From contig JAJFUS010000032.1 of the NCBI GenBank assembly GCA_021372295.1, positions 1 through 64,000 on the forward strand: a stretch of DNA of 64,000 nucleotides, in the 5' to 3' direction. Position numbers and translations under genes: made by a program. Origin of the DNA: a bacterium. GTDB lineage: Bacteria; Armatimonadota; UBA5829. The notes below the pieces were generated by a model. The model saw only the letters and a program-made list of their open reading frames with translations, was not told the DNA's origin and did no database searches. Each line of letters begins with the position of its first letter. Position 1 is the first letter of the stretch. Below, one piece after another: positions 2,177-62,283 of this stretch.

Positions 2177-5100
2177 GTGGTCTTGCTCAAGGGAATAGCA
2201 AAAACTGTCGGGACGGCTGTCCTGATTACAATTTTTTCTGCGGGCGCATCCCTTTCTCAGATTGCTGCCGACAAAACCAGGATCATGGCGCAGCTTGCTC
2301 AAGCGACCAAGACCCAGTTTTCCGTACGCGTGTCCTCATCGGTTAAGTCCAACCACGACCAGACAGCTCAAATTGCGCTTGACCTGATTGTTTACAGATG
2401 GCTAGTGCGCTCATCGGATATGCCTTTGGATGTCGCCAATATTCAGAGCATCATCCCGGCGCTTACAAAAGAAATCGGCGACCCGACGATCATCTGGGCA
2501 ATGCAGATATTCTCTCCTGTCGAAAGAAATGCCGGAACGATCACCCTGCCGCCGACAAACGACGAACGAGTGCCCCTCTTGTCCGACCTGCAAAGAGAGT
2601 ATCGGACGGCTGTCGATTATAAGGAATCACATCCCGTCGAGGCTGTCAATTCACTAAAAGAACTCGTCACGATATGTCAGAAGCTCCACCTGGATTTGTC
2701 GGAAGCGATTATCTGCAAAGAACTCGGCGATCACTATCTCTACGACATGGCTCTATATCGGCAGGCAGACAAATGTTACAGCGGCGCGCGCTGGACTTTC
2801 CCGGCATACAACTGCGTGCAGTCCGCCGCCATCCTTTATGACGATTACGGCACGCTGAATGTTGAGACCGAGCTATATACCTCCGCAGCCGAATACTATA
2901 TACTGGCAGCTCAACAATGGCTGTCGCTGGCAAGCCAAGACTCCAGCGAATTTCGCTATCGAGACAGGGCGGGTCAGGAATTCATGAAGGCAGGAGAAGC
3001 ATTCAGGGCAGCCGGGCAACCGGACAAAGCGCTCGATATTATGACCACCTACGGACTCTACCAATTACGAACGTGGGCTTATGCTGCAAAGTCTTACCCG
3101 GTTTTGATTACGAATCTGATAACCGTTGCGCAGCTCTATCTGGAGCGTGGCAACATACCACGAGCCCTGGGCCTCTTGCAGGAAGCAAAAAACGCAAGCC
3201 TTATCAACAATGACGCGCTGCTGACCGCACGAACTTACAGCACTTTGTCGGAAGTATATGCCGCAGCCCATCAGACGAACTATTCCACAGAAGCAAAACA
3301 CAAACGCGAACAAGTTCTGCGTGAAGCAGCCTCAAAAGGCGAAGCGGCAATTCTAAAACTCGAAAAATCACCATCCGCAGTCGAATCGACGCGCATGCCG
3401 CTTTACGCAAAAGCTGAAAAAGGAGCATCGGCATATTCAGCTCTTGGCGACCCGCAAAAGTGTGCGGACTTATGGCAAAGGATCGCTGCGGCATATTCAA
3501 AGGCCGGAATGTCCGATAAGATGATATCCTCAATGCGCGTATGGGCATCCGTGTTGGATGAGCAGGAAAAGCCTCAGCGCTCGCTGGAGATCAGGCGGGA
3601 CGCCGCAATGGAAGCCATCAAGGCCGGTAAAAAGACTCTGGCCGCCGATATAGTTCAGGATATGGTTCAAGCGTTTATCGACATCGGAGACCTGCAGAAC
3701 GCCGTTGAAGGCTTTACCGAGCTCGTCCCGATCATTGAAGCATCGGGGAATGTGCGCGGAGCCACGCGTGTGCTTGAGGCAAGGGGCATTCTTCTGGCAA
3801 AAAACCGACACTTTGATGAAGCCATCAGAGACCTGCAGGATGCTCGAATCAGATATATGTCACAAGTCGGCGACTTATGGTCGGCGAGCAACGTCTCACT
3901 GGAGCTTGCCGCGGCGCAGAAGTCGGCGGGACGTGCCGATGAGGCTCGAAATACTCTAAAGGCTGGAATCGACGAAATCGAATCTCGGTCACAAAGCGAA
4001 AATCTCGATCCGACCATCAACTTCAAACGAAGCCAGCTGGTCATGAATCTCTATGCGGAACTCGCAACGGCGTACGTTCGCGTCAACATGTCACCCGATG
4101 CCGAAGAACAGCTCAGAAAAGCAAAACGGTACTCCTGGCTGCCGGATCTCATAAATCAGCTGAAAGCCGACCGCAATCCGTTCGTTTCAAAGTTCGCGAA
4201 GAGCTTTGACATTATGGGCGGCAACACGATACCCGGTGAGACCAATACCCTCAGCGGCGAGCGTCTGCTGGCCCAGAACTGGTCAGCATATATTCAAACC
4301 TGCTGGATGCTCAGCGCACAGCATTCTTCGGCATATAAATGCCTGCCCGTAAACCCACTGGACTTGTACACAATGCGCGCCTCGCTGCCAAAATTGGGGT
4401 CAATTGTGGAGTATATGGTTACGGATACGTCCACTTACGTGTTCGTCTGCAAATATGACAAGCCTATATGCAGGGAAATCGCGGCTTCGCGGCAGGACGT
4501 CGAAAAACTGGTGTCGGAACTACGCAAATCGCTCAAGGACAACGAGGAAAGCCAGAACGCGGGCGTGCCGGTTCCACCTATATACGACTGGCAAGGCTCA
4601 GCGTTCACGGACATCAGCAAGCCTCTGGCCGAACTATACAACCTGCTGATAACACCGATCAAGCCCGACATTGAGACCGCGCAGATGCTATATTTCGCGC
4701 TGCCCAGCGAACTCTCGGGGTTGCCGATGCACGCTCTCATCAAACCGGGCAGCGATGAAACTCCCAAGTTCCTGATCAACGAATACGGGGTAAGTTATCT
4801 GGCGGAAGGAATGCTGGACAATCTAGTCGACGGCGCATCGGACGCGAATTCAGGCACGGAAAGACTTGCGATATTTGCTGACCCACAAAATAATCTGCCC
4901 GGCGCGCAGGAAGAGGCCAAGGCGATCAAGACCATCTACCTGAATAGCCAGTGGTATGTCGGAAAAAACGCCACTGCAGCGAGCTTTCTGGCCGAGTGCG
5001 AGAAAGCAGGCATAATACACGTAGCAGCGCATCATCGGACTGACCTCAATCCGGCGAAATTCGAGCTTATGCTTGCACCGCAGGGACAATCAGACGGCAG

Positions 5101-20737: not shown

Positions 20738-20770
20738 GGCGGTTCTTGTTAGTATATAACAAGAACCGCC
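20738..20770 (-). terminator. 13-bp perfect hairpin downstream of the STN-domain gene
   Basis: GGCGGTTCTTGTT and AACAAGAACCGCC pair perfectly around a 7-base loop. There is no T-tract on the minus side. It lies 31 bases after the stop of the STN-domain gene, next to a second palindrome (20781-20799). Confidence 0.5.
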
Positions 20771-45760: not shown

Positions 45761-46147
45761 ATGGGAATTCTAAGACGCATATCACTGATTATTCGGGGAC
45801 TGGCCGCCGGACAAACAGAACGTTTGGACGAAATCGCACGCGACGAATTATCCTCCGTTGCGCCCACCCAAACGCCAGTCATCAAGAAACCTGTCACTCT
45901 ACAGCCGATGATTGCGCATCTTGCCGCGGATTATAGAACGCTCGGCGTCGAACCCGATGCGGACCTGGACGCGGTCGAAACGGCATGGCGAGCGCTTGCG
46001 TCAAGAGCCGACCCTAAGCGCTTCCCAGCAGGCTCCGACGAAGAAAAAAGAGCGGCGGCCATACTTGACTCAATCAATGAGGCGTACGCCCGAATTAGAG
46101 AAGAACTGAACCCAACTGAAGGCCGTTTCGGGCGATTGGAATTATAA
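45761..46147 (+). CDS. J-domain-like protein of the psp operon
   Basis: A 128-residue protein. Residues about 55-125 resemble a DnaJ domain (DYRTLGVEPDADLDAVETAW, then DSINEAYARIRE), but the HPD loop needed to stimulate DnaK reads ADPKRF, so it lacks the histidine. It may be an adaptor rather than a co-chaperone. It begins 5 bases after the upstream stop and closes the pspA operon. Confidence 0.78.
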   Translation: MGILRRISLIIRGLAAGQTERLDEIARDELSSVAPTQTPVIKKPVTLQPMIAHLAADYRTLGVEPDADLDAVETAWRALASRADPKRFPAGSDEEKRAAAILDSINEAYARIREELNPTEGRFGRLEL

Positions 46148-46282: not shown

Positions 46283-46483
46283 TCTGATGGTTTCACCCTC
46301 AGACTCCCAACCAAGGGCCTCCGCCCTTGGAACCCGCTGGGGCCGCGGGCCCCAGACCCCTAATGCAGATTTATATGTTCCCTTAAGGGAACATATAAAT
46401 CTGAGTCAGAAGGTCCAGGAAACCTGGTTTCCTGGCAGAGTCCAGAGACAGAGTCTCTGGCGGGGTTTGGGGCGGAGCCTCAA
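46283..46483 (+). repeat. Seven-hairpin 201-bp repeat, copy A
   Basis: This copy aligns without gaps to 61974-62174. Seven inverted repeats occur in a row: 46283-46303, 46311-46330, 46337-46355, the central 38-bp perfect palindrome 46366-46403, 46415-46435, 46442-46460 and 46467-46483. About 147 of the 163 flanking bases match copy B by hand count. The central palindrome shares only its core (TCCC, four A/T, GGGA) and scattered positions with copy B. It fills most of the 361-base gap between the psp operon and the helicase gene. No gene lies in it. Confidence 0.9.
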
Positions 46484-46508
46484 GATTAGTTTTGGAGAAA
46501 CTTCAATT

Positions 46509-48785
46509 ATGGAATCTGCCGCATTCCTGGATTCTATACGCGCCTCCAAGGAGTACCGCGGGCAGGTTGCGCACGTCGAAGCCATTCCCGCCAGGGCCGC
46601 CGCCTGGCGAGATATCGAGCCGCCGGTTTCCGGCAGAACCGCCGACGCCCTCGACCGCCTCGGCGTAACCCGTTTCTATATCCACCAGGCCGACTCCATC
46701 GAAGCCGTGCGGCGCGGCGAGCATGTGGTCGTAGTAACCGCCACCGCCAGTGGCAAGACTCTATGCTATAACGTGCCGGTGATGGAGTCGCTGGAGGCCG
46801 ATCCAAAATCTCGCGCGCTGTATATTTACCCGACCAAAGCTCTCGCGCAGGATCAACTCGGCAAGCTCAGGCAATTCGGTCTGGCGAGCATCAAGGCCGC
46901 GACTTATGACGGCGACACCCCCCGCAAAGACCGGCCATTTGTGAAGAGCACAGCAAATATCGTCCTCACAAACCCCGACATGCTACACTGCGGCATATTG
47001 CCCTATCACTCAACGTGGTCTGAGCTGTTTCGCAATCTCAAGTTCATCGTAATCGACGAAGTTCACATGTATCGCGGGGTCTTCGGCGCGCATGTGGCGA
47101 ACGTGATAAGACGGCTTCGGCGAATCGCGAAATATTACGGCTCCGATCCCCAGTTTGTGTGCGCATCGGCGACTGTAAGCGATCCCCACGGCCTCGTAAA
47201 AGATCTCACAGGCATCGACGCCCGGGTAATCGACGACGACGGCTCGCCATCTGGCCCGAAGTCGTTCGTGTTCTGGAACCCGCCGTATATCGCGGGCAAG
47301 GACGAACGCCGCAGCGCCAACTCCGAGGCGGTAAACCTGCTGACGAAGATGGTACAGTCAGGCATTCGCACAATTGTCTTCACCAAAGCTCGAAAGACCG
47401 CCGAACTGATACTTAGATACGCGAAAACGGCTCTAAAGGACGAAAAGTCGCCGCTTGCAGACAAAATCATGGCCTATCGAGCGGGATACAGGCCCGCTGA
47501 ACGACGCGATATCGAGCAAAGGCTCTTCTCGGGCGACCTGATGGGTGTCACATCGACGAGCGCGCTAGAGGTCGGCGTGGACATAGGCGGGCTGGACGCG
47601 GTGGTGATGGTCGGCTATCCGGGCACGGTCGCGAGCACCTGGCAGCAGGCTGGCCGAGCGGGTCGAGGGCTTAAAGGTTCGATGGCAGTGCTCATCGGCC
47701 TGGACAACCCCATCGACCAGTATATTATGCGCAATCCCGACTATTTTTTCTCGCACGAACACGAACGCGCAATTGTCGACTCGCAGAACCCGTATATACT
47801 CGCCGATCACCTGCTCTGCGCAGCTTACGAGATTCCTATCGACAAGAACGAAGTCGAGGATCTTTTCGGCGAACGCGCATGGGACTTACTCGGAACGCTC
47901 GGCGATTTGGGTCAGCTTCAATACAGACGCAGGTGGTATTGGACAGGCTCCACATATCCCGCCGCCGACGTAAACATCCGCTCCGCCGGAGGCAGTTACA
48001 GCATAGTCTCGATTGAAAAGGGCGGCGCTCTGCTGGGGACGGTCGATGGTTCGAGCGCATTCGACACGGTTCACCCCGGCGCGGTCTATTTGCATTCTGG
48101 CGAAAGCTATGTCGTAACAAAGCTCGACATCGACGAGCAAGTGGCCTATGTCGAGAAGAGCGAGGTAAACTATTACACAACTCCCGGTGATCAGACTCGA
48201 ATTTGCGTGGAAAACGAACTGGAATCGCGCGCACTCTCCGACACACCCGTGACCCCGATCAGCTTTGGCGAGGTGACTGTCGCCAACCGGGTCACGCATT
48301 ACTGGCGCAAGAAGCTTTTCAGCGACGAAGTGATTGAAAAACGTCCTCTCGACCTGCCTGAAATCGAGCTCAGAACGGAAGCCGTCTGGATCACGATGCC
48401 CGACGAAGTGACAAACAAACTCATAGGCCGCGCCTTCGATCTAGCCGGAACGATCCACGCAATCGAGCACGCGGCAATCGGTCTGCTTCCGCTGATTGCG
48501 TTATGCGACCGTCAGGACATCGGCGGAGTGTCTCATCCCGATCATCCCGATACCGACGGCAAACCAGTAATCTTCATCTACGACGGCCATGCGGGCGGCG
48601 TGGGCCTGGCGCGCGCCGCGTACAATCAAATCGAGGATCTTCTCTCCGCCACTCTCACAACAATTCGCGACTGCCCGTGCGATGACGGCTGCCCATCATG
48701 CATCCAGTCGCCCAAATGCGGCAACAATAACGAGCCTCTGGATAAAGCGGGAGCGGTGTTCGCCCTAACCGAGATGATTGGCTAG
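46509..48785 (+). CDS. DEAD/DEAH-box helicase of the MrfA/YprA family
   Basis: A 758-residue superfamily 2 helicase. Visible are the Q-like region, Walker A (ATASGKT), DEVH box, ASAT motif III, the C-terminal helicase lobe (TSALEVGVDIGGLDAVV, QQAGRAGR) and a C-terminal DUF1998-type zinc-binding cluster (CPCDDGCPSCIQSPKCGNNN). MrfA of Bacillus helps repair mitomycin-type DNA damage. ATG 46509 has GGAG 11 bases upstream; the frame is open further left only because repeat copy A has no stop in it. Confidence 0.93.
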   Translation: MESAAFLDSIRASKEYRGQVAHVEAIPARAAAWRDIEPPVSGRTADALDRLGVTRFYIHQADSIEAVRRGEHVVVVTATASGKTLCYNVPVMESLEADPKSRALYIYPTKALAQDQLGKLRQFGLASIKAATYDGDTPRKDRPFVKSTANIVLTNPDMLHCGILPYHSTWSELFRNLKFIVIDEVHMYRGVFGAHVANVIRRLRRIAKYYGSDPQFVCASATVSDPHGLVKDLTGIDARVIDDDGSPSGPKSFVFWNPPYIAGKDERRSANSEAVNLLTKMVQSGIRTIVFTKARKTAELILRYAKTALKDEKSPLADKIMAYRAGYRPAERRDIEQRLFSGDLMGVTSTSALEVGVDIGGLDAVVMVGYPGTVASTWQQAGRAGRGLKGSMAVLIGLDNPIDQYIMRNPDYFFSHEHERAIVDSQNPYILADHLLCAAYEIPIDKNEVEDLFGERAWDLLGTLGDLGQLQYRRRWYWTGSTYPAADVNIRSAGGSYSIVSIEKGGALLGTVDGSSAFDTVHPGAVYLHSGESYVVTKLDIDEQVAYVEKSEVNYYTTPGDQTRICVENELESRALSDTPVTPISFGEVTVANRVTHYWRKKLFSDEVIEKRPLDLPEIELRTEAVWITMPDEVTNKLIGRAFDLAGTIHAIEHAAIGLLPLIALCDRQDIGGVSHPDHPDTDGKPVIFIYDGHAGGVGLARAAYNQIEDLLSATLTTIRDCPCDDGCPSCIQSPKCGNNNEPLDKAGAVFALTEMIG

Positions 48786-59176: not shown

Positions 59177-60004
59177 TTAATCAAGCTCGCAGCCAAGCCA
59201 TCTTCTGCCAGACTGTTCAGCCACAACAAGTGTTGTTCCCGATCCACTAAATGGATCAAGTATAATATCGCCCTTGTTCGAGGAAGCAAAAATCAATCTT
59301 CGAAGTAATTCTTCCGGTTTTTGTGTGGGATGTGGTGTACTCTCATACGAACCATTACACGTAGTTGGAATCTCGATGACATCTTTTGGCTTCGCTCCCA
59401 TAGGATGCGGCAGCCAATTATCGTGTTTCCCGTTGTCGTTTCCCTTACCGTATTGGCTAGTCTCAGCCTGTGGATGCACCGGATACTTTAGAGTATGAGC
59501 GCTATATGGCACACGAATATAATCTATATTCATGACGAAATTTCTCGACTTACGAAGATGAAGGATGCTCTCATGGGATCGTCCAAAATCATTCCCCAGA
59601 CATGCCTTATTCTTGTAATGCCATACCAGCCATCTGCATCCCTGGAAGAATTCGGATGCCGGCAGTTTCAGGTCTGCAAGAATTTCAGAAAAGCCACACA
59701 CATAGAGCGTACCGGTTGGTTTGAGTAATCGCGATACTTCTCTGATCCAGTTGATTGACCATTCTACATAAGCTTTCTGTGACTCGAATGTATCCCATTC
59801 AGCTTTCTTAATATTATATGGGGGATCGGCAAAAACTAGATCGATTGATTTGCTTGGAATCGACTTTAGCCATTCCGCACAATCTCCACAATACAACCTG
59901 CCATTAGGATGATTGTAGTGGCAGAACAACTTCTCGTTATTATCGTTTTTCTGAACACTACCCGTTGTAGGTATATCCAGATCAAGAAGTCTGTTAACCA
60001 CCAC
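59177..60004 (-). CDS. DNA adenine methyltransferase, truncated by an in-frame stop
   Basis: A 275-residue beta-class amino-methyltransferase. Motif IV is FADPPYNIK, and motif I (ILDPFSGSGTT) lies near the C-terminus, followed by RRWLGCELD and a TAA. Family members continue with a helix (Y..IA..R), which is found after the stop in the same frame (59066-59176). Either the gene is mutated, the stop is read through, or the shortened enzyme works. It pairs with the endonuclease gene downstream. AT-rich compared with hom and thrC. Confidence 0.88.
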   Translation of the reverse strand: MVVNRLLDLDIPTTGSVQKNDNNEKLFCHYNHPNGRLYCGDCAEWLKSIPSKSIDLVFADPPYNIKKAEWDTFESQKAYVEWSINWIREVSRLLKPTGTLYVCGFSEILADLKLPASEFFQGCRWLVWHYKNKACLGNDFGRSHESILHLRKSRNFVMNIDYIRVPYSAHTLKYPVHPQAETSQYGKGNDNGKHDNWLPHPMGAKPKDVIEIPTTCNGSYESTPHPTQKPEELLRRLIFASSNKGDIILDPFSGSGTTLVVAEQSGRRWLGCELD

Positions 60005-61937: not shown

Positions 61938-61973
61938 CTCTTTCAATGTAAGCGTTTAGTTCTACGAGAATTA

Positions 61974-62174
61974 TCTGAGGGTTTCACCCTCAGACTCCTG
62001 ACCAAGGGCCTCCACCCTTGGATCCCGCTGGGGCCGCGAGCCCCAGACCACTATATCGAAATTGATTTATCCCATATGGGATAAATCAATTTCGGGACAG
62101 AAGGTCCAGGAAACCGGGTTTCCTGGCAGAGTCCAGAGACAGAGTCTCTGGCAGGGTTTGGGGCGGAGCCCCAA
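61974..62174 (+). repeat. Seven-hairpin 201-bp repeat, copy B
   Basis: Exactly the length of copy A (46283-46483), with hairpins at the same offsets: 61974-61994, 62002-62021, 62028-62046, central 38-bp perfect palindrome 62057-62094, 62106-62126, 62133-62151 and 62158-62174. The central palindrome differs from copy A at nine positions per arm, all compensated. It lies between divergent accB and ftsY, and no gene is seen within it. The rest of the 61858-62283 gap holds the accB leader and promoter on the left and the ftsY leader on the right. Confidence 0.9.
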
Positions 62175-62283
62175 GAAATCCCCGTAAGACTGACACTTTA
62201 CAATGAAAACCCCCGGCGGTATACTTGAATGTGCAAGCGGCGCATACGCAGCGTCGCTTGAATTATGTGTGCACGGAGGCGCT

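Follow-up and report, generated by a model that had tools for sequence, protein, structure and literature searches.

A hairpin array at two places in the window

The window, by which we mean the whole stretch of 64,000 nucleotides analysed, belongs to a draft genome of 2.65 Mb in 56 contigs (G000); the relatives used for comparison are labelled G001 to G004 (same genus) and G035 (distant, same phylum). There are two copies of a hairpin array in the window (Table 1). Copy 1 sits between two genes of the + strand, 45761-46147 and 46509-48785, the second of which encodes an MrfA/HRQ1-like helicase. The helicase frame is open back into copy 1 (46287-48785), with an alternative ATG within hairpin h1, and the Pfam domains of the helicase all lie in the part after 46509. 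Copy 2 is placed between a biotin carboxyl carrier gene and ftsY, which are divergent. A gene for an N6/N4 DNA methylase (PF01555) is located near copy 2, at 59177-60004 on the - strand.

The original prediction, made from the window, described a repeat of seven hairpins in which the central palindrome differs between the copies yet stays symmetric, and the measurements agree with it. Both copies are 201 bases long and align without gaps, all seven hairpins are found in each, and the flanks of the central palindrome are identical at 148 of 163 positions (about 147 had been estimated). The central 38-mer (h4, the core) is a perfect palindrome with 19-bp arms in each copy; the arms differ between the copies at 9 of 19 positions with every change compensated, so that 20 of the 38 bases are equal. 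The two cores are the longest perfect inverted repeats in the window in a scan that allowed loops of 0 or 3-6 bases. The hairpin-5 pattern, with up to three mismatches, occurs at two places in the whole window, where 0.16 are expected, and these are the two copies. RNA folding of the copies gives z = -8.35 and -8.59, with 0 of 200 shuffles as good. A perfect inverted repeat at 20738-20770 (14-bp arms, 5-base loop) is unrelated to the family.

Table 1. Parts of the two array copies, with positions in the window
Feature	Position	Strand	Basis or remark
Copy 1 h1	46283..46303	+	Sequence; one arm mismatch here; pairs in most family members
Copy 1 h2	46311..46330	+	8-bp arms, loop CTCC
Copy 1 h3	46337..46355	+	8-bp arms
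Copy 1 central palindrome h4 (core)	46366..46403	+	Perfect 19-bp arms
Copy 1 h5	46415..46435	+	Homologue of h3 on the inverted side; both-orientation alignment
Copy 1 h6	46442..46460	+	Homologue of h2; both-orientation alignment
Copy 1 h7	46467..46483	+	Homologue of h1; both-orientation alignment
Copy 2 left terminal repeat, diverged type I	61949..61973 (limits approximate)	+	Left versus right flank comparison
Copy 2 h1	61974..61994	+	9-bp arms
Copy 2 h2	62002..62021	+	Hairpin scan
Copy 2 h3	62028..62046	+	Hairpin scan
Copy 2 central palindrome h4 (core)	62057..62094	+	Perfect 19-bp arms
Copy 2 h5	62106..62126	+	Hairpin scan
Copy 2 h6	62133..62151	+	Hairpin scan
Copy 2 h7	62158..62174	+	Hairpin scan
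Copy 2 right terminal repeat, diverged type I	62175..62201 (limits approximate)	-	Flank comparison

The plan of the element is three hairpins, a central palindrome and three inverted homologous hairpins. In MAFFT alignments the copies align column by column in both orientations, and the left arm, h1-h2-h3, looks homologous to the right arm, h5-h6-h7, once the latter is reverse-complemented. Homology in this inverted sense makes the element a palindrome built of palindromes about a central one. The array is approximately 200 bp long, or approximately 255 bp with the type II ends described below, and is non-coding (1 of 106 copies lies within a called ORF).

Copy number in the genome and the genus

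A 29-base hairpin-5 pattern with up to three mismatches matches G000 at 114 places, 57 on each strand, and the reversed control at none. The array is thus not confined to the pair in the window, a point on which the original prediction depended. Of 157 first-look candidates in G000, 40 were scored, and all 40 are array copies, some of them partial. Allowing up to four substitutions, we extracted 106 copies (with 100 of the 114 pattern places listed), of which at least one, C20_62932, is degenerate; they are spread over 31 of the 56 contigs. Three contig ends in G000 (C13:131, C31:131 and C45:61) have an element edge and a right flank in common, which looks as though a single site had been duplicated in assembly.

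Hairpin-5 matches number 0, 3, 4 and 5 in the other genomes of the genus, and there are none in eight further genomes of the family. When the whole 201-mer was used, 5 of 61 genomes matched, namely G000, three congeners and G035; there was no match in the plasmid and phage collections. The counts in the relatives are probably too low because their contigs break inside the repeats. A burst of copies in G000 (114 versus 0, 3, 4 and 5) was considered, and it is weakened for the same reason.

G000 is a 56-contig draft and some of its contigs start or stop within elements, which could speak for an assembly artefact or a chance repeat. However, the copies lie on 31 contigs with differing flanks, they recur at orthologous sites of other assemblies, and there are similar arrays in named genomes that include isolates such as Acidiphilium rubrum. 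These contig, ortholog and isolate data refute the artefact reading, to which we give practically no credence.

Position and orientation relative to genes

The 106 copies are located between tandem genes (49), convergent genes (24) or divergent genes (17), at the edges of stretches (15) or inside an ORF (1). The nearest gene 3' end is a median of 9 bp away and lies within 60 bp for 85 of 105 copies. In tandem contexts 39 of 49 copies point the opposite way to the genes (p=4e-5). The h7 edge is turned toward gene 3' ends in the ratio 62:23 and the h1 edge in the ratio 31:52 (Fisher p=5e-6). The original prediction placed the copies on the + strand before a gene. This holds for both window copies but not as a general rule, given the 39 of 49 tandem copies that run against the genes, and the + strand orientation of copy 1 is the minority one. 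The gene caller was crude, taking the farthest start codon, and misread the context of window copy 1. The orientation bias is the best argument for a role at the level of the transcript, as neutral transposition does not explain it.

Symmetry of the core and of the other hairpins

Two of the 106 copies are cut by contig ends and the cores of the other 104 were examined. A score of at least 9 over 17 pairs was reached by 96 cores, 74 of which are perfect; the remaining 8 copies are without a scorable core, which is deleted, rearranged or shifted. In the 96 cores 1602 of 1631 cells are Watson-Crick pairs, 13 are G.T, 9 are A.C and 7 are other. Decay of the central palindrome without compensation, on which the original prediction would have foundered, is not seen. 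If the + strand acted as an RNA, G.U would be tolerated more readily than A.C. The ratio of G.T to A.C is 13:9 (p=0.52), with no strand bias of the wobble pairs, so the core is without an RNA-type wobble signature.

When the arms are placed in a common register (n=91), 73 are perfect and there are 30 distinct sequences, and 20 of the 29 edges of a minimum spanning tree represent a single paired change. On the short edges of the tree 20 paired changes are transitions and 22 are transversions, and the departures in a single arm comprise 15 transitions and 5 transversions (Fisher p=0.057, on related sequences). No wobble intermediate exists for a paired transversion.

The other six hairpins were counted in 95 copies, after windows without an acceptable stem had been dropped (h1, 15; h2, 7; h3, 25; h5, 2; h6, 11; h7, 10), and 91-98% of their cells pair. 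The mismatches are 46 A.C and no G.T in h3 and 16 G.T and 3 A.C in h6, which point to opposite strands; each imbalance may be one inherited variant. Exact inversions of the loop on an unchanged stem occur in h1 (1 of 60) and h2 (1 of 51), and none was seen in h6 (0 of 60) or h7 (0 of 58). Six one-base loop cases among 83 in h5 are ambiguous. Inverted loops also occur in h1 of copy C43:13762 and, save for one base, in the core of L035 relative to L033 and L044 in G003.

Template switching between the arms of an inverted repeat equalises the arms and inverts the spacer, as described in the portions of PMC8604942 and PMC8794818 used here. In the same portions, bacterial template switching favoured transversions (PMC8604942) and its part in maintaining short RNA stems is termed circumstantial (PMC8794818). 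The paired transversions, the lack of wobble bias and the loop inversions are therefore footprints of DNA template switching rather than of selection on RNA. These footprints are indirect, and inversions could also come from recombination between the arms; copying from arm to arm is nevertheless the most economical account of the symmetry. In outline this bears out the original suggestion of a mechanism that preserves symmetry and not sequence.

Selection on folding has to be weighed against this account. The array could be a structured RNA or a 3' mRNA element, such as a BIME-like stabiliser or bidirectional terminator, whose hairpins are kept by folding selection and which has spread as a useful module. 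The closeness of the 3' ends (median 9 bp, 85 of 105 within 60 bp), the edge bias (62:23 for h7 versus 31:52 for h1, p=5e-6), the pairing of the stems (91-98%) and the folding z of about -8.4 all argue for it. However, the core is without a preference for G.U (13 G.T, 9 A.C) and compensated transversions are as frequent as transitions. At the Rfam gathering score there was no match in the window and only a tRNA in 20 loci, and on the h7-to-h1 strand the T run of a Rho-independent terminator (at least 5 T) occurs in just 2 of 103 arrays. The position itself says little, as inverted repeats in general are enriched downstream of bacterial stop codons, according to the part of PMC13155455 drawn on here. 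We regard a structured RNA or 3' mRNA element as improbable, though worth serious thought. As to the original suggestion of a structured RNA, the proximity to 3' ends with its orientation bias would fit such a role, but the core covariation carries no RNA signature. A replication signal, which had also been suggested, is a poor fit to 114 dispersed copies.

Turnover of the core at orthologous sites

Three orthologous sites were found. The copy at C45:68469 in G000 and that at C13:20363 in G004 have both neighbours in common and lie 3 and approximately 9 bases past the same stop codon. Window copy 61974 and a copy on C102 of G002 have one flank in common, the leader of the biotin carboxyl carrier gene, the G002 contig starting at the element. 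Copies on C9 of G003 and C20 of G004 have both flanks in common. Within every pair the linkers have hardly changed, and h5 or h6 is either identical or differs mostly by compensated pairs. The core differs in each pair yet is palindromic, in some with a mismatch or a one-base bulge. In the relatives, 14 of 15 loci gave a core; none of the 14 arms is in the G000 set and 8 are perfect. Different palindromic cores at the same sites show that the core is renewed with its symmetry kept, either at the site itself or through copying from one site to another. The core sub-families travel with the adjoining linkers.

In one orthologous pair, L032 and L044, the outer hairpins are swapped, as an inversion between the arms would yield. 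Extra long hairpins are located between or inside the array hairpins in relatives (L033 right of the core, L052 and L047/L051) and represent a second family nested in the first. The two flanks of L037 (G004 C69) are found at two element sites of G000, C45:10945 and C6:34527, as would be expected had the chromosome been rearranged through recombination between elements.

It could be argued that copying from arm to arm is unneeded and that every replacement concerns a whole core module and comes about when dispersed copies recombine or undergo gene conversion with one another. This fits the joint movement of core sub-families and adjoining linkers, the absence of all 14 relatives' arms from the G000 set, the different cores between kept linkers at the three orthologous sites and the flanks of one G004 copy at two G000 element sites. 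However, it explains neither the exact loop inversions nor how new sub-families could be symmetric from the start (the perfect arms have 30 distinct sequences, and 20 of 29 edges are a single paired change). We therefore think it unlikely that exchange of modules is the whole account.

Terminal repeats, target duplications and a candidate mobiliser

Many copies have a further inverted repeat of approximately 25-30 bases outside the array, which is of one of three types (I, II and III). All 22 copies that could be typed on both sides agree (I-I, 10; II-II, 9; III-III, 3), whereas with the right flanks permuted a mean of 4.7 agree and 22 was never reached in 2000 runs. A further 27 of the 106 copies are typed on one side and 57 on neither; the left flank was unplaceable in 22 copies and the right flank in 15. 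Typing by chance occurs in 8 of 175 shuffled flanks. Window copy 2 has diverged type I repeats, and flank comparison gave no recognisable terminal repeat for copy 1.

Type II ends (core GGGTGYRTGTCA) are bordered by 9-bp direct repeats. Among 18 distinct end pairs, a count that keeps every pair although the longer pairs probably include a few matched by chance, 10 have at least 7 of 9 bases repeated and 5 have 9 of 9. When type II ends were mixed between elements, 2 of 306 pairs had at least 7 of 9. Of the 13 pairs that bear an array, 6 have at least 7 of 9 and 4 have 9 of 9. With all end types together, duplications in 10 of 77 copies are hardly above chance (control mean 3.9, maximum 9), and a loose duplication test was noisy (12 of 167 pairs at 7 of 9 or more). 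The duplication evidence concerns type II and does not extend to end types I and III or to the two copies in the window. Three sequences of 134-212 bp in relatives (L298 in G001, L313 and L315 in G004) have type II ends, 7 to 9 of 9 bases duplicated and unrelated interiors.

The type II core end sequence also bounds a repeated insertion sequence in G004, which is present only as contig ends with its interior unassembled. Contig ends recur in G004 approximately 125 bases from GGGTGCRTGTCA (L303, L305, L307, L309, L311, L319 and L322-L327), and they mark both ends of this insertion sequence. Over its final 33 codons it matches the C-terminus of NF033572, an ISKra4-family transposase model (positions 401-421 of 422, E 0.01), weakly, at 15 bits against a model cut-off of 205; Pfam gave no family for this C-terminal piece. 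Members of the ISKra4 family have GGG ends and a 9-bp duplication, and the GGGTGYRTGTCA ends and 9-bp repeats of type II fit these features. Type II copies have their ends in common with an insertion sequence of a sister species that is perhaps ISKra4-like. A search for a complete transposase with the ends of the element found none; the ISKra4 model matched in 0 of the 5 genomes of the genus, and PF00872 matched fragments only (two in G000, two in G004 and one in G001).

The original prediction had listed a mobile palindromic element among its possibilities, and this is the one that the data favour, with 114 matches, agreement of the terminal repeats in 22 of 22 copies and 9-bp target duplications for one type. 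Type II copies appear to be MITE-like, and copies of the other types and both window copies would be so by extension.

A REP, REPIN or BIME system moved by a Y1 (RAYT) transposase would also form a palindrome mosaic near gene ends in high copy number, and Y1 transposases (PF01797) are found in four of the five genomes of the genus. However, G000, which is richest in copies, has no PF01797 match. GTAG occurs in 15 and CGTC in 23 of 103 arrays, anywhere on either strand, so there is no fixed tag. Y1 transposases are not known to make target duplications such as the 9-bp ones of type II. We consider such a system very improbable here. In the portions of PMC2817692 and PMC3733652 used here, REP, BIME and REPIN sequences are likewise high-copy palindrome mosaics with inverted pairs near gene ends, and their palindromes are also preserved through complementary changes. 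In contrast with that description, the present arrays have no Y1 in their richest genome, no fixed GTAG/CGTC tag and 9-bp type II duplications, and they are far longer and nested about a core with 19-bp arms.

Related arrays beyond the genus

An exact pattern of h3 plus its spacers (25 fixed bases, gap 0-8) was found in at least 120 stretches of named genomes. Among the matches listed most are from Rhodospirillales/Acetobacteraceae, and others are from Ruminococcaceae, Armatimonadetes, Nitrospirae and Candidatus Zipacnadia. Whole-genome counts in 12 of these gave 1 to 304 matches, the 304 in one Rhodospirillales genome, with 0 in each control. A long palindrome follows 34 of 115 h3-pattern sites and 0 of 115 shuffles, 22 sites too near an end having been dropped; most sites are without a central palindrome by that test. 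In the phylum of the window the half-array motif has a patchy distribution, occurring in 15 of 291 genomes; the reversed control matched once. There are thus hairpin strings of the same design in other phyla, whether by descent, transfer or convergence. The hairpin-spacer module of Rhodospirillales, Ruminococcaceae, Armatimonadetes and Nitrospirae has no description in the open-access literature searched and no Rfam match in the window and 20 loci.

At L155 (approximately 2940-3060; Ruminococcaceae RUG12962) four GC hairpins stand in tandem as a half-array; their spacers are ACCCCGC-like, and a mirrored second half was not seen. In G035, at L034, L038 and L042, a long palindrome unrelated in sequence comes after two GC hairpins, like a half-array with a core of its own.

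Discussion

Copy number, architecture, matching terminal repeats, the 9-bp duplications of type II and the near-total symmetry of the arms are matters of observation. The best explanation of the whole, and in our judgement a moderately probable one, is a non-coding nested-palindrome MITE that is moved in trans and whose arms are kept equal by DNA template switching. The element would spread by means of a transposase supplied in trans, which for one type of terminal repeat is perhaps ISKra4-like, and the copies without recognisable ends (57 of 106) would spread likewise. One arm would act as the template for the other, so that a mutation would be erased or mirrored in one step. Copying between dispersed copies would give each species its own cores. 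Different cores are observed at the same site in sister species, as is closeness to gene 3' ends with a bias of orientation; position and orientation would reflect which insertions are nearly harmless, or useful, when they form the 3' end of an mRNA. Evidence against this explanation is that no complete transposase with these ends was found, that 57 of 106 copies have no recognised ends, that duplications overall are weak and that the orientation is biased. The unbalanced mismatches of h3 and h6, the absence of inverted loops in h6 and h7 and the p of 0.057 for the transition/transversion contrast also count against it. The mobile reading is well supported for copies with type II ends and extends by analogy to the rest.

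Bacterial MITEs such as QMITE2 of Coxiella burnetii and Chunjie of Geobacter are alike in being short and non-coding with terminal inverted repeats, and the portion of PMC10969869 used here also describes direct repeats of 7-9 bp (QMITE2), stem-loop transcripts, a transposase supplied elsewhere and diversity of size and sequence. The present family differs from the MITEs in that portion in its hairpins, which are stacked in a fixed order and mirrored on the two sides of a core that stays palindromic while its sequence turns over. It also differs in having one body within at least three kinds of terminal repeat, or none recognised, and a hairpin module in other phyla. Template-switch mutations at quasi-palindromes, as presented in the parts used of PMC8794818 and PMC8604942, resemble the changes seen here in that compensated changes are made in one step, arms are equalised and spacers are inverted. 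They are, however, a mutational process and not an element, and here that process would act over a whole dispersed family.

Other systems are also built of hairpins. The double-hairpin elements of fungal mitochondrial DNA are mobile hairpin units with compensated stems, but they have two hairpins and are found in organelles. In integron attC sites, which have R-box core sites and work with an integrase, the structure is kept rather than the sequence.

Taken together, this is a MITE-like family with an unusual nested-palindrome body, in which the symmetry of the core is inherited and its sequence is not. A broader proposal, which we put forward tentatively as possible rather than probable, is that there are onion-like palindromic mobile elements across phyla. 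In these the symmetry would be inherited while template switching rewrites the arms, cores would turn over between species at a fixed site yet stay perfect palindromes, and arrays would be kept as bidirectional gene 3' ends. The family offers more than 100 natural replicates in one genome, together with orthologous sites, in which selection on structure can be set against one-step copying of arms as the source of hairpin compensation. The hairpin-spacer module is common to several phyla and lies near the 3' ends of many genes.
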